Assembly (NCBI RefSeq): GCF_000758165.1
Contig: NZ_JNUP01000029.1
Location: 1 to 64,000 of the forward strand
DNA length: 64,000 nt
Reading direction: 5' to 3'
DNA from: Spirochaeta lutea
GTDB taxonomy: Bacteria > Spirochaetota > Spirochaetia > DSM-27196 > Salinispiraceae
Below are positions 29,727-34,585 of this stretch, one piece after another. Numbering within the stretch: the first letter of the stretch is position 1; the number at the start of each line of letters is the position of its first letter. A program made the translations under genes and the position numbers. The notes below the pieces were generated by a model, which searched no databases, was not told the origin of the DNA, and saw only the letters and a program-made list of their open reading frames with translations.

Positions 29727-31025
29727 CTACCGCCCCAGGTATTCCCGAACAGCCTGGGCAACCCGGCGGAAGGTGGCCTGCCGGAGGGCGTCATCACTCT
29801 CCAAGAGGGTCATGCGGAATCCCTGGCGGCTGGTACAGAAGCCGGAAAGGGGCACAACGCAGATTCCCCTAGCACCCAGCAGGTAGTATACGAACCGCTT
29901 ATCGGGCTGCTTGCCCCGGGATGCCTGCTCCACCAGCTCCGCGACCCGGGCATCCTCGATGTCGAGCCGCCCATCCTCAGGAAGCACACCGTCCTGGAAG
30001 GCCAGGGTCAGGAAGAACCCGCCCTTGGGAGGGTGTACCATGATGCCGGGAATCCCCTGGAAGGCCTGCACTGCTTCATGGGCCCGGGCAGCATACATAG
30101 CGTTCCGGGAGGATAGGTGGTCTGCATAACGCTCATCCCCCATTATAGAGGGTATGGAACGCTGAGGCAGGGTGGTGGAACAAACCTCCAGGCGTTTTGC
30201 ACTGATGATACTGGCGATGTACCGGGCGAAATCCGGGTCTGCCTGGCGGTTATACACCTCGGCCCAGCCGCACCGCCCGCCGGGCCAGGGAAATTCCTTG
30301 GAAATGCTGCGTAGAGCCATACCGGGCACCCCGTCGATAACCTCGCTCAGATAGTGGGTCCGTGCGCCGTCGAATACGATATTGGCATAGGTCTCGTCGC
30401 AGACCAGGAAGAGGTTATGCTCCTTGGCAATGCGTACGAACTCCAGGAGAACCTCGGGACTGTAGACCACCCCGGTGGGGTTGTCGGGATTAATAAGCAG
30501 AATCCCAGCGATGGAGGGGTTATAGGTGACCTTGTTTTCCAGATCCTCCAGATCGGGCTGCCAGCCCCGGTTCGGATCCAGGGTGTAGGTTAGATGCTCG
30601 TAGCCGGAGTGGGCCGCTTCTGCGCTGCTGTGGGTGGAATAGGCGGGGCTGGGGCCGATAACCCGGGCTTCGCGCTTCAGAAAGCCGAAAATCTTCGCCA
30701 CCGCATCCCCCAGTCCGTTGAAAAAAACGATATCATCCGGGGTTACCTGGCAGCCTCCCCGGCGGTTCACCATATCCGCAAGAAATTCCCGGGTAGCCGG
30801 TTCACCCTGGGTATCCGAATAGGCGTAGGATGCATCCTCCAGGACCAGCTCGCTGATGATCTTTTTCATCCACGGGGCAAGCTGCTCCCCCTTGCGGACC
30901 GGATCGCCGATGTTCTCCCAGGTGATGGGTACGCCCAGAGCCTGTACCTGATGGGCGAACTGTACAATTTCCCGGATCTCGTAGGTAAGTTGCCGGGCGC
31001 CGTCGTGTTCGATGGTGCGTCGCAT
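29727..31025 (-). CDS. PLP-dependent class I/II aminotransferase behind a candidate Ala attenuator
   Basis: About 432 residues. NPDNPTGVVY and DETYANIVFDG are fold-type I landmarks; SISKEFPWPGGRCGW contains the PLP lysine. ATG 31025 has AAAGGAG 4-5 nt upstream. The family includes aspartate and alanine aminotransferases; the alanine-rich leader peptide and terminator upstream point to alanine as product or signal (inference). Monocistronic: the sigma gene downstream has its own start region. Confidence 0.9.
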   Translation of the reverse strand: MRRTIEHDGARQLTYEIREIVQFAHQVQALGVPITWENIGDPVRKGEQLAPWMKKIISELVLEDASYAYSDTQGEPATREFLADMVNRRGGCQVTPDDIVFFNGLGDAVAKIFGFLKREARVIGPSPAYSTHSSAEAAHSGYEHLTYTLDPNRGWQPDLEDLENKVTYNPSIAGILLINPDNPTGVVYSPEVLLEFVRIAKEHNLFLVCDETYANIVFDGARTHYLSEVIDGVPGMALRSISKEFPWPGGRCGWAEVYNRQADPDFARYIASIISAKRLEVCSTTLPQRSIPSIMGDERYADHLSSRNAMYAARAHEAVQAFQGIPGIMVHPPKGGFFLTLAFQDGVLPEDGRLDIEDARVAELVEQASRGKQPDKRFVYYLLGARGICVVPLSGFCTSRQGFRMTLLESDDALRQATFRRVAQAVREYLGR

Positions 31026-31101: not shown

Positions 31102-31131
31102 AAAAAAACCGCGGTCCGTCGGGACCGCGGT
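31102..31131 (-). terminator. Attenuator terminator before the aminotransferase
   Basis: The minus strand has a perfect 10-bp stem ACCGCGGTCC / GGACCGCGGT (31108-31131, loop CGAC) followed by seven T (31102-31108). It lies between the leader-peptide stop and the structural gene, so without antitermination it would block the gene. A second hairpin, GTACCC... / ...GGGTAC, sits at 31073-31101. Confidence 0.88.
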
Positions 31132-31161
31132 CTGGATGGTTGTGGGTATTCCCTCCCCTTC

Positions 31162-31245
31162 CTACAGCGGACCGACCATGGTTGCGGCGGCGGCTGCAGC
31201 GGCTGCGAGGTGCAGGTGCTGACTGGAAAGGTTGGTGTGTTTCAT
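31162..31245 (-). CDS. Alanine-rich leader peptide (27 residues)
   Basis: ATG 31243-31245 to TAG 31162-31164. The peptide is MKHTNLSSQHLHL, then eight consecutive Ala (codons GCA GCC GCT GCA GCC GCC GCC GCA), then TMVGPL. It lies between a good promoter and the terminator. The segment CGGTCCG in its last codons (31168-31174) is exactly complementary to CGGACCG in the terminator (31112-31118), as needed for ribosome-controlled antitermination. Confidence 0.7.
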   Translation of the reverse strand: MKHTNLSSQHLHLAAAAAAAATMVGPL

Positions 31246-31251
31246 GGATGA

Positions 31252-31283
31252 AACTCTAATCCCCTGGGGCATGAATTGTCAAG
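31252..31283 (-). promoter_or_regulatory. Promoter of the aminotransferase leader
   Basis: The minus strand reads TTGACA, 18-nt spacer, TAGAGT, then TTCATCC and the leader-peptide ATG, i.e. seven nt from -10 to ATG. The leader transcript may itself be leaderless; there is no clear Shine-Dalgarno. Confidence 0.7.
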
Positions 31284-31505
31284 GAGAATGATGCATTCCC
31301 GGCCCGGGTAATCCGGAGTTGGCGGGTATCAAGGCCGACAAGGAACTACCTGGGGCATGGGAATCACCCTAAACCCGCAAACAATACCCAGGAACCTACC
31401 CGGTGAGCGGCTGTCTTCCTGGCAAGAACCGTGGATGGGCCCTGTACCCCCGACGCCAGATCGGGGTCCCCGGGTAGGACAGAGGGCTGGGGAAAAACCA
31501 ACGCG

Positions 31506-31535
31506 TGGACAGGACCGAGGAATTCGGCGTATCCT
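31506..31535 (+). promoter_or_regulatory. Promoter of the polyprenol-kinase-like gene, candidate leaderless
   Basis: TGGACA (31506-31511), 18 nt, TATCCT (31530-31535), seven nt, ATG at 31543. It supports that ATG over the upstream in-frame start. Confidence 0.45.
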
Positions 31536-31542
31536 CCAGGCT

Positions 31543-32487
31543 ATGACTGATTTGATGGGACTTGGGATATCCTACGGATTTATTGCCGGGGTAATCGGTG
31601 TTGCCAGCCGGCTGGTGGCTTCGGGAAGAATGGGAGCCAAGGCGGGGCGGAAGGTGATTCATGTGCTGGTGGGGCATTGGTGGTTCTTAGCCATGGCTCT
31701 GATCCGCCAACCCTGGGTTGCACTCATCGGCCCGGGGAGTTTTGTGATAATAAACGCCCTGATTATCCGTCTCAAGCTCTTGCCGGCCCTCTCGGGCAGG
31801 GATAAAAACTACGGTACGGTCTACTATCCCCTTTCCCTCCTGGTGCTGGTGGTGCTGGTTTGGTACGGGGATTTGAATGCCTGGATAGGCGCCCTGGGCA
31901 TGATGATCATGTGCTGGGGTGATGCAGCAGCAGCCCTGGTTGGCGAGGCGTGGACCGCCCGGAGAGCCAATCAGGTCCACGGCCCGGGTTCTGGGGGTTC
32001 AACTAGGGCCGGCCCAGACCGGCCTTCCCCCACACCCCCTCCCCCCGGTACCCTTTCGTCCCCGGCTGCCCTGCGCCCAGAACCGGACAGCGGCACCCCC
32101 GGCGGGAACGGCGAGGCTCCCGGCACAGGCCTTCCTTCCAACTCCCACGCCCCAGACCGACCCGGGGACTCCCACAGCCCAGACCGGCCTGGGGGCTCCC
32201 ACACTCCAGACCGGGCGGGGGACTGCCACAGCCCAACAGCTCCCCGTTCATCCTCCCCGGGGAAGAAGACCCTGGCAGGCAGCCTTGCCATGGGGGTGGT
32301 GAGTTTTATCGTGGCCCTGCCCCTGGTAGCCCTGGCACTTCCCGAGGCAGGCCCGGGCACAGTGTTGGCAGCCTCTGCTACCGCCGCTCTGACCGGTTCC
32401 GTTCTGGAATACCTGACACCCCTGGGGCTGGATAATATCAGCGTGCCCCTGGGTACGGCAGGAATACTGTGGATTCTCTTCCTATGA
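31543..32487 (+). CDS. Membrane prenol kinase / CTP-transferase-like protein (VTE5/SEC59 family)
   Basis: About 314 residues with six or more hydrophobic helices. VIHVLVGHWWFLAMAL, NYGTVYYPL and MIMCWGDAAAALVGE resemble dolichol kinase/phytol kinase (VTE5) and CdsA-like enzymes, which phosphorylate polyprenols with CTP. A ~105-residue Pro/Ser/Gly-rich insertion (nt ~31,960-32,265) splits the last cytoplasmic segment and contains three ~30-bp units encoding DRPGDSHSP-like repeats. It is translationally coupled (ATGA) to a DUF92 gene. Confidence 0.8.
   Translation: MTDLMGLGISYGFIAGVIGVASRLVASGRMGAKAGRKVIHVLVGHWWFLAMALIRQPWVALIGPGSFVIINALIIRLKLLPALSGRDKNYGTVYYPLSLLVLVVLVWYGDLNAWIGALGMMIMCWGDAAAALVGEAWTARRANQVHGPGSGGSTRAGPDRPSPTPPPPGTLSSPAALRPEPDSGTPGGNGEAPGTGLPSNSHAPDRPGDSHSPDRPGGSHTPDRAGDCHSPTAPRSSSPGKKTLAGSLAMGVVSFIVALPLVALALPEAGPGTVLAASATAALTGSVLEYLTPLGLDNISVPLGTAGILWILFL
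32140..32240 (+). repeat. 30-bp tandem repeat in the prenol-kinase-like gene (~3 units)
   Basis: Three imperfect 30-bp units encode Ser-His-x-Pro-Asp-Arg-(Pro/Ala)-Gly-(Asp/Gly)-type repeats. In frame, within the low-complexity insertion. Confidence 0.8.
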
Positions 32488-33575
32488 AGGGCGGTTGGTC
32501 CGGGGGCGATTTAACTATGGAGGGCAGTTGGTCCGGGGGCGATTTAACCTCGGGAACCTGGGGTGCCGGGGGTTTCGGAGGTGACGCCCCAAGGGTTTCT
32601 TCCCAAGCCCAGGAAGTTCTATCTGGAGCAATGGGGGAAGCCGCGCCGGGAAGCCTCGTTTTTCATGGAGCCGGTACCGGTGAGGCCGGGTTCTGGATCT
32701 GGGGACTGGCCCTGGGGGTGATCCTGAATCTTACTCTGGCCATAGCCGCCCGGCGCCGCAGGGCGGTGAGTCCCGATGGTGCGGTTATGGGGTTTATCCT
32801 GGGCCTGGTGATCTATGCGGGCCTGGGGCCCGGGGGATGGGGTTGCCTGGTCCTCTTTTTTGTATCCAGCTCGCTGCTATCCCGGACCGGGAAGGAGCGC
32901 AAGGCACGCCTGGACCTGGCATCCCTGCACGAGAAGTCGGATCAGCGGGATTGGCTCCAGGCATTGGCCAACGCCGGTCCGGGAGCCCTCTGCGCCCTGG
33001 GGTTCTTGGTGACGGGGGAATCCCTGTGGATTTTGGGGACGGTAATCAGCTTGGGGGCGGCCAACGGCGATACCTGGGCCAGCGAGCTCGGGGTGCTCAG
33101 CCCCGGGCCGCCGCGATCCATCCTCACCGGGAAGCCCCTGGCACCGGGAACCAGCGGCGGGATCAGCCCCCTGGGGCTTGGGGGCAGTCTTGCCGGGGGC
33201 CTTTGTATCGGCTTGGGCGCAGCGGGTATGCACCTGTGGGGTGCCTTCGGCATGTTGGGGCTTGGGGTATTGGGCTGGGAACAATCTTGGCAAACCAGTG
33301 TTCAGGGAGGGGCAGCCCTTGAACCGGCGGCTCTTATCCTGGCCGGAGCCGCTGGGGGTTTCATGGGCAGCCTGATCGATAGCCTTCTCGGAGCATCGAT
33401 CCAGGCCAGGTACCGCACCTCCCGGGGCCGGCTTACCGAACGCCCCCGGGACCAGGCCGGCACCCCCCACCTCCTGGCCGGGGGTTTACCGTGGATAGGG
33501 AACGACGCGGTCAACCTGCTGGCCAACAGCGCCGTTACCATCCTCGGCATGGCCGTGGCAGCCTACATCAGCTGA
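32484..33575 (+). CDS. DUF92 membrane protein (VTE6/TMEM19-like)
   Basis: About 363 residues. The DUF92 core is visible: RRRRAVSPDGAVMGFILGL, GANGDTWASELG-type NGDTWASELGVLSP, TSGGISPLGLGGSLAGG and GNDAVNLLANS. Plant VTE6, of this family, phosphorylates phytyl phosphate. ATG 32484 overlaps the upstream stop (ATGA); an in-frame GAT-containing extension upstream is unlikely. The first 22 residues are a 33-bp direct duplication (32484-32516, 32517-32549; WSGGDLT twice). Confidence 0.82.
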   Translation: MKGGWSGGDLTMEGSWSGGDLTSGTWGAGGFGGDAPRVSSQAQEVLSGAMGEAAPGSLVFHGAGTGEAGFWIWGLALGVILNLTLAIAARRRRAVSPDGAVMGFILGLVIYAGLGPGGWGCLVLFFVSSSLLSRTGKERKARLDLASLHEKSDQRDWLQALANAGPGALCALGFLVTGESLWILGTVISLGAANGDTWASELGVLSPGPPRSILTGKPLAPGTSGGISPLGLGGSLAGGLCIGLGAAGMHLWGAFGMLGLGVLGWEQSWQTSVQGGAALEPAALILAGAAGGFMGSLIDSLLGASIQARYRTSRGRLTERPRDQAGTPHLLAGGLPWIGNDAVNLLANSAVTILGMAVAAYIS

Positions 33576-34585
33576 ATACCCCGGGCCGCCAGGCTCTTGA
33601 CCGTTTCGGATGGCCAAACCGCTGCCTGCACCTGGCCGATATGGGCCTTACGGAGCAAGAACATGCAGAGCCGGCTCTGACCGATGCCTCCGCCGATGGT
33701 CTGGGGAAAGTCCCCGGCCAGAAGCCGGGAATGCCAGTACAGCTCCTGGCGCTTCATGGTTCCGGTGATCTCCAGCTGGCGCAGCAGGGCCGGGGCGTCA
33801 ACCCGGATCCCCATGGAAGAAAGCTCCAAACTCGTGCCGCGGACCGGATCCCAGACAATAATATCACCATTCAAACCCCGGTAATCCTCCTTGCCAGCGG
33901 GGCTGGACCAATCATCGTAGTCCGGAGCCCGTCCGCCGTGTACCGCTCCATCGGAAAGGGCTCCTCCGATCCCCTGGATGAAGACGGCCCGATACTCCCG
34001 GGCAAGCTCCGCCTCCCGTTCCTCGGGGCTCAGCTCCGGATAGCGGTCCAGGGCATCCTGGGCGTGGATGATGGTTATTTCTTCGGGAAGTACAGGTTCA
34101 ATCTGGGGATACTGCTCATGGACCACGAACTCCGTGCGCTTCAGGGCCTGGAAAATCCTGCGGACCACCTGGTGTAGGAACTCGCTGTTCCGCTCCCGGG
34201 GCGTCATTACCCGCTCCCAATCCCACTGGTCCACATAAATGGAGTGGATGGCATCCATCTCATCATCGGGGCGCAGGGCGTTCATATCCGTATAGATACC
34301 CGTACCCTCCCCGTATCCGTAGTCGGCCAGGGCCATCCGCTTCCACTTTGCCAGAGACTGGACGATTTCCATTTCCTGGTCGCCCAACCGGGCAACGGGA
34401 AAGCGTACCGGACGCTCAATCCCGTTCAAATCATCATTAATACCCGAACCGGCAGGAACAAAAAGCGGGCTGGTAACCCGAAAAAGCCGCAGCTCAGCTG
34501 ACAGGCTTCGCTCAAAATAGTCCTTCACCAACTTGATGGCAGTTTCCGTCTGTTTAATGTCCAATAAATCTTGATATGCGTGCAT
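33563..34585 (-). CDS. asnA: Aspartate-ammonia ligase
   Basis: Makes asparagine from aspartate, ammonia and ATP; class II aaRS-like fold. 340 residues, normal length. RVTSPLFVPAGSGINDDLNG and PQTIGGGIGQSRLCMFLLRK are signature regions. The stop overlaps the convergent DUF92 gene by 13 nt. On the minus strand TATACT lies only 7 nt before ATG with no Shine-Dalgarno, suggesting a leaderless mRNA, though the -35 is weak. Confidence 0.95.
   Translation of the reverse strand: MHAYQDLLDIKQTETAIKLVKDYFERSLSAELRLFRVTSPLFVPAGSGINDDLNGIERPVRFPVARLGDQEMEIVQSLAKWKRMALADYGYGEGTGIYTDMNALRPDDEMDAIHSIYVDQWDWERVMTPRERNSEFLHQVVRRIFQALKRTEFVVHEQYPQIEPVLPEEITIIHAQDALDRYPELSPEEREAELAREYRAVFIQGIGGALSDGAVHGGRAPDYDDWSSPAGKEDYRGLNGDIIVWDPVRGTSLELSSMGIRVDAPALLRQLEITGTMKRQELYWHSRLLAGDFPQTIGGGIGQSRLCMFLLRKAHIGQVQAAVWPSETVKSLAARGIQLM

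Follow-up and report, generated by a model that had tools for sequence, protein, structure and literature searches.

Organization of the locus

On the minus strand of the window, the whole 64,000-nucleotide stretch of Spirochaeta lutea DNA that was analyzed, a gene encoding a PLP-dependent aminotransferase of 432 aa starts with an ATG at 31025 and ends at 29727 (29727..31025). The protein belongs to NCBIfam NF005334 (PRK06855), with a score of 646 bits where the cut-off is 443. Its closest relative of solved structure is the glutamate-pyruvate aminotransferase AlaA of E. coli (4cvq), and the enzyme is likely an alanine-forming transaminase.

Upstream of the gene, an initial annotation made from this sequence had described a promoter, an alanine-rich ORF and a terminator, and all three were located. 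The sigma-70 promoter, TTGACA-N18-TAGAGT, lies exactly at 31282-31253 (31253..31282, minus strand; TTGACA 31282-31277, TAGAGT 31258-31253), matches 10 of 12 consensus bases and is the single promoter-like site between 31000 and 31350, where shuffled sequences gave 0.2. It is followed on the same strand by a leader ORF of 27 codons (31162..31245) that begins with ATG, encodes MKHTNLSSQHLHLAAAAAAAATMVGPL and terminates with TAG at 31164-31162. Eight consecutive Ala codons within this ORF (GCA GCC GCT GCA GCC GCC GCC GCA; 31183..31206, minus strand) are proposed to serve both as sensing codons and as segment 1 of an attenuator. Segment 2 (GUCGGUCCGCUGU; 31164..31176, minus strand) ends at the leader stop codon and is the predicted antiterminator partner of segment 3 (ACCGCGGUCCCGAC; 31118..31131, minus strand), which consists of the 5' arm and loop of an intrinsic terminator and has segment 2 or segment 4 as alternative partners. 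The terminator itself (31102..31133, minus strand) comprises a stem-loop at 31133-31106, predicted at -21.2 kcal/mol with a GC-rich core of 10 bp that reaches 12 pairs when the flanking A-U pairs are included, and seven T at 31108-31102; its 3' arm is segment 4.

The neighboring gene upstream is divergent (31357-32487, plus strand), so that there is no nearby minus-strand upstream gene for the terminator to serve. Another amino-acid gene, asnA (aspartate--ammonia ligase, TIGR00669), is located upstream of the aminotransferase on the same strand (33563-34585, minus strand). A scan of the window at Rfam gathering thresholds gave no riboswitch or T-box match at the leader locus, its two hits, an rRNA fragment and a TPP riboswitch (RF00059; 57436-57541, minus strand, 66.8 bits), lying far away. 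The 5' end of a 23S rRNA gene, clipped by the window edge, occupies positions 1-230 of the minus strand.

Conservation of the Ala-run leader in Spirochaetia

Orthologues of the aminotransferase were found in 41 genomes of a sample of 395 from the class Spirochaetia, the named examples being Spirochaeta- and Treponema-type assemblies, and 44 non-redundant upstream regions of class orthologues formed the comparison set. A short ORF with at least four consecutive Ala codons precedes 30 of these 44 orthologues, with runs of 4 to 8 codons, compared to 0.05 expected from dinucleotide shuffles; runs of at least five are present in 22 of the regions (shuffles, 0) and runs of at least six in 14. Homopolymer runs of four or more are residue-specific in the 44 upstream regions, 30 being formed by Ala, one by Leu and none by any other residue. 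A 31st Ala leader, in genome G037, is divided between two contigs. Terminators are present in 28 of the 30 Ala-run leaders, and orthologues of the class without Ala leaders mostly have no terminator either. The homologous leaders to which the initial annotation had pointed thus retain both the Ala run and the terminator, and what had been a single candidate should be regarded as a conserved element.

The Ala codons of the leaders are GCC (54), GCA (53), GCG (40) and GCT (12), a variation among synonymous codons indicating that the amino acid itself is what is kept. Conservation of the leader peptide outside the run is poor. Leaders L137 and L138 carry scattered, non-consecutive Ala codons (NNSAKASVINSLW and TISASAKALHLLW, respectively) within the same promoter and terminator layout.

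The element is absent from about a quarter of the class orthologues. Outside the class, 34 orthologues from the same phylum were compared, and none has an Ala-run leader. Upstream regions with neither an Ala leader nor, as far as seen, a good terminator are L112, L120, L122, L124, L127-L129, L003, L006-L008 and L143. The near relatives L128/L140 and L112/L083 differ in the leader, so that its loss looks recent. When mapped on a 55-protein tree, the attenuator occurs on every large branch of the class with absences scattered between, and the supported branches require at least six changes of state in its presence. This pattern fits an attenuator that would be old in Spirochaetia and would have been lost repeatedly.

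A search of the 395 genomes with a composite pattern containing Ala codons matched 45 genomes, many of which are background since a reversed control pattern matches about 25. Among the matches that were read, a short Ala ORF with a terminator was present only at this aminotransferase gene. Upstream of alaS, Ala runs were found in none of 20 readable regions, and 10 further ones could not be placed. Ala runs upstream of L106, L107 and L110, which belong to a set of AlaA-like paralogues (L087-L110), were discarded as out-of-frame readings of the upstream gene, with no terminator seen. 'AAAA' matches in Arthrobacter represent a different conserved small protein and were discarded as well.

Pairing segments and ribosome-dependent folding

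The family exhibits the classical four-segment layout. Segment 2 comes after the Ala run and, in most leaders, has its end no more than about 5 nt from the leader stop codon; a spacer then leads to the terminator and the gene. Pairing of segment 2 with the 5' arm and loop of the terminator (2:3) showed a mean z of -2.8 and reached p<0.05 in 18 of 24 leaders, with a combined p of 2e-23; examples are GGAGGAUCGCGGU:GCCGUGAUCCUCC in L126 and ACUGUGGUU:AACCACAGU in the AU-rich L134. The predicted 2:3 and 3:4 pairings are mutually exclusive and conserved in the family, as would be expected from the logic of trp, his and leu attenuation invoked in the initial annotation. In one clade, represented by L116, L117, L119 and L123, segments picked by hand allow a six-segment cascade of the his type, in which 2:3 and 4:5 alternate with 3:4 and 5:6. 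Covariation counted by hand within single clades yielded few two-sided changes (two in 3:4 in one clade, none in 2:3 in another) and was left out of the main evidence.

RNA folding was computed for different ribosome positions, assuming a footprint that extends 14 nt downstream of the A-site codon. When the ribosome was placed on Ala codon 2, the 2:3 antiterminator of the window had a probability of 0.64 in the nascent RNA before segment 4, where it was also the MFE fold, and with the ribosome at the stop codon this probability was 0.03, so that the two states foreseen in the initial annotation are indeed predicted to fold differently. The same trend was obtained as a mean of 24 leaders, with 0.84 for the ribosome stalled on Ala codon 2 versus 0.17 at the stop. 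Without a ribosome, the value for the window was 0.18, because the RNA of the Ala codons (segment 1) pairs with segment 2; in several relatives, the fold without a ribosome still favors 2:3. Equilibrium folding of the full-length leader often preferred the terminator even in the stalled state (0.93 in the window), which means that the switch must depend on the order of synthesis. The trp leader likewise depends on the order of synthesis.

A leader that should start with its own AUG

The position of the promoter would place the start of transcription at the leader AUG, a point missing from the initial annotation. Transcription in bacteria usually starts about 7 nt past the -10 box, and 7 nt is the gap between the -10 box and the leader ATG in the window. 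The leader AUG should thus be the 5' end of the RNA, and promoter spacing indicates that transcription should begin at 31245, give or take 1 nt. In the window, no Shine-Dalgarno sequence lies ahead of the leader AUG. A sigma-70 promoter scoring at least 9 of 12, with its -10 box ending 6-7 nt before the leader AUG, is present in 24 of 32 leaders (shuffles, 0.1), a count somewhat raised by choosing the start codon with the best promoter where several were possible, about half of the leaders having one only. The same test of promoter geometry at the start of the CDS gave 0 of 32. Some leaders deviate, such as L134 with a gap of 10 nt and an AGGAG. Leader mRNAs are thus predicted to be leaderless, as should hold for the window and most of the family.

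Proposed mechanism and alternative explanations

We are confident, if short of certain, that the conserved anatomy, the alternative pairings and the promoter geometry reflect ribosome-mediated transcription attenuation of the kind seen in trp and his leaders, here specific for alanine and with a leader peptide that would be translated from a 5'-terminal AUG. The tiny gene of Ala codons would very probably act as a sensor of alanine shortage that decides on transcription of the aminotransferase. RNA polymerase would start at the leader AUG, and a ribosome would begin translation of the 27-codon leader. With plentiful alanyl-tRNA, the ribosome would reach the stop codon and cover segment 2, allowing 3:4 to pair and transcription to stop before the aminotransferase gene. 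When alanyl-tRNA is scarce, the ribosome would stall in the Ala run and leave segment 2 free to engage segment 3 while segment 4 has yet to be made, upon which the polymerase would enter the aminotransferase gene and the enzyme made would refill the alanine pool. If no ribosome loads, pairing of the Ala-codon RNA with segment 2 would let the terminator form. The reading of the locus as an alanine attenuator in the initial annotation is supported in kind, with regulation by alanine as a prediction, and should be amended by the 2:3 pairing and the leaderless start.

A similar architecture could serve as a general sensor of translation stress resembling whiB7, in which any slowing of the leader ribosome, by an antibiotic or by shortage of any amino acid, would cause readthrough and alanine would be one input. 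We consider this unlikely. The architecture would answer any stall early in the leader, and in mycobacteria the uORF attenuator of whiB7 is triggered by antibiotics as well as by starvation for amino acids, with a link to alanine starvation. The runs upstream of the aminotransferase, however, are formed by Ala, with the one Leu exception, in leader peptides of otherwise poor conservation, and the product of the gene is not a resistance regulator but a metabolic enzyme related to alanine transaminase.

The initial annotation had assigned a different partner to the end of the leader ORF, which would pair with the 3' arm of the terminator (segment 4) and break it from that side. The complementarity on which this was based is exact, CGGTCCG (31174-31168) being the 7-nt complement of CGGACCG (31118-31112), and the 2:4 duplex of the window (-16.9, z -1.9, p 0.044) is slightly better than 2:3 (-16.5, z -0.3), which in the window alone is no better than shuffled sequence. 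By itself, the 7-nt match is weak evidence, and it is not shared across the family. However, the arms carry a near-palindromic CCGCGG in the window and in its nearest relatives, L082 and L084, so that the window alone cannot separate 2:3 from 2:4. Across the family, the mean z of 2:4 was -0.86, versus -2.8 for 2:3, and p<0.05 was reached in 6 of 24 leaders versus 18. In addition, the 3' arm emerges next to its 5' partner and would pair with it first, and the nascent RNA of the window is predicted to fold as 2:3. Pairing with the 3' arm is therefore quite unlikely to be the operative switch. The proposal that a stalled ribosome frees a segment that breaks the terminator is retained with 2:3 as the predicted antiterminator, the partner being the 5' arm and not the 3' arm.

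It is highly improbable that the repeats are GC-rich sequences kept for RNA pairing, or for encoding a small poly-Ala protein, with the Ala codons not being sensed. The Ala codons (GCCGCAGC) do resemble the 5' arm of the terminator and pair with segment 2 in the absence of a ribosome; yet the runs share the reading frame of a suitably placed AUG and a stop, their third positions vary, they persist in the AT-rich leaders L121 and L134, and Ala codons occur scattered in L137 and L138. A chance combination of non-coding, GC-rich sequence and a leftover terminator of an upstream gene, conceivable in a GC-rich genome where Ala runs are common in proteins, is practically excluded by the divergent orientation of the upstream neighbor and is already refuted by conservation (30 of 44 regions versus 0.05 in shuffles).

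Relation to known attenuators

The alanine attenuator proposed here shares with classical systems (trp, his, leu and ilv of Proteobacteria; trp, leuS and ilv of Actinobacteria, PMC1262725) a leader ORF enriched in codons for the amino acid under regulation and a 2:3 antiterminator opposed to a 3:4 terminator, with 1:2 pairing predicted for the window when no ribosome is present, and the his-type six-segment cascade of those systems also occurs among the alanine leaders of Spirochaetia. Unlike the classical attenuators, the Spirochaetota element would sense alanine, its Ala codons would themselves constitute segment 1, and its leader is predicted to be leaderless. The closest precedents, which exist separately, are the poly-Cys leaderless ORFs and whiB7 with its link to alanine starvation. 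Polycysteine leaderless short ORFs of mycobacteria (Canestrari et al. 2020, doi 10.1111/mmi.14498, as cited in PMC9031893 and PMC13236596) are described in the citing papers as leaderless uORFs in which, as proposed here, a run of a single codon senses an amino acid and controls its biosynthesis genes. These actinobacterial ORFs respond to cysteine through what PMC13236596 presents as translation attenuation, with no obvious conserved terminator according to the account in PMC1262725, whereas the Spirochaetia leader would respond to alanine and combines an intrinsic terminator with an antiterminator. The whiB7/wblC attenuator (PMC11550727) also unites a uORF, a terminator and an antiterminator, and has been linked to alanine starvation and to the alanine enzyme AspC (Poulton et al. 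2024, as cited in PMC13236596); unlike the element described here, it has a transcription factor as its target and reacts to antibiotics and to starvation in general, with alanine control being indirect. Leader-peptide attenuation outside Proteobacteria and Actinobacteria has a further example in the His leader peptides before hisS and hisZ of bacilli (PMC2965389), which differ from the alanine leader in amino acid, gene and phylum; before that case, no such system was known outside those two groups (Naville and Gautheret 2010, PMC2965389).

No attenuators in spirochaetes were found described in the open-access literature, nor was an alanine attenuator from any source, although subscription papers lay largely outside the search and a description elsewhere is possible. 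The element is maintained across most of one class with several apparent losses. For NF005334, an aminotransferase family of unnamed substrate, the putative attenuator points to alanine as the likely product.

Histidine leaders with the same architecture

The same composite pattern with His codons was searched in 248 genomes, as a positive control, and matched 23 of them, versus one match for the reversed control. Of the loci that were read, 14 carry a leader of 13-19 codons, four or five of them for His, together with a T-run hairpin and, downstream, a protein bearing the N-terminal HisG motif; whole proteins encoded downstream of three His leaders were identified as HisG by Pfam. The hisG leaders recovered show the same leaderless promoter geometry, suggesting that leaderless leader-peptide attenuation is not confined to alanine in Spirochaetia and may be a general device in these bacteria. 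It is probable that the class as a whole uses leaderless leader-peptide attenuators, for alanine and, before hisG, for histidine, with ribosomes loading on the 5'-terminal AUG of nascent RNA, and that the one for alanine is the first attenuator dedicated to this amino acid, its sensing codons doubling as the first pairing segment. Under such a leaderless geometry, ribosome-polymerase coupling must begin with initiation at the 5'-terminal AUG, which provides a clear, testable case of leaderless initiation and attenuation working together. His-run leaders with terminators before hisG were observed in many Spirochaetia genomes (L242, L243 and L249-L260), one example being MKKTLALHHHHHISES.
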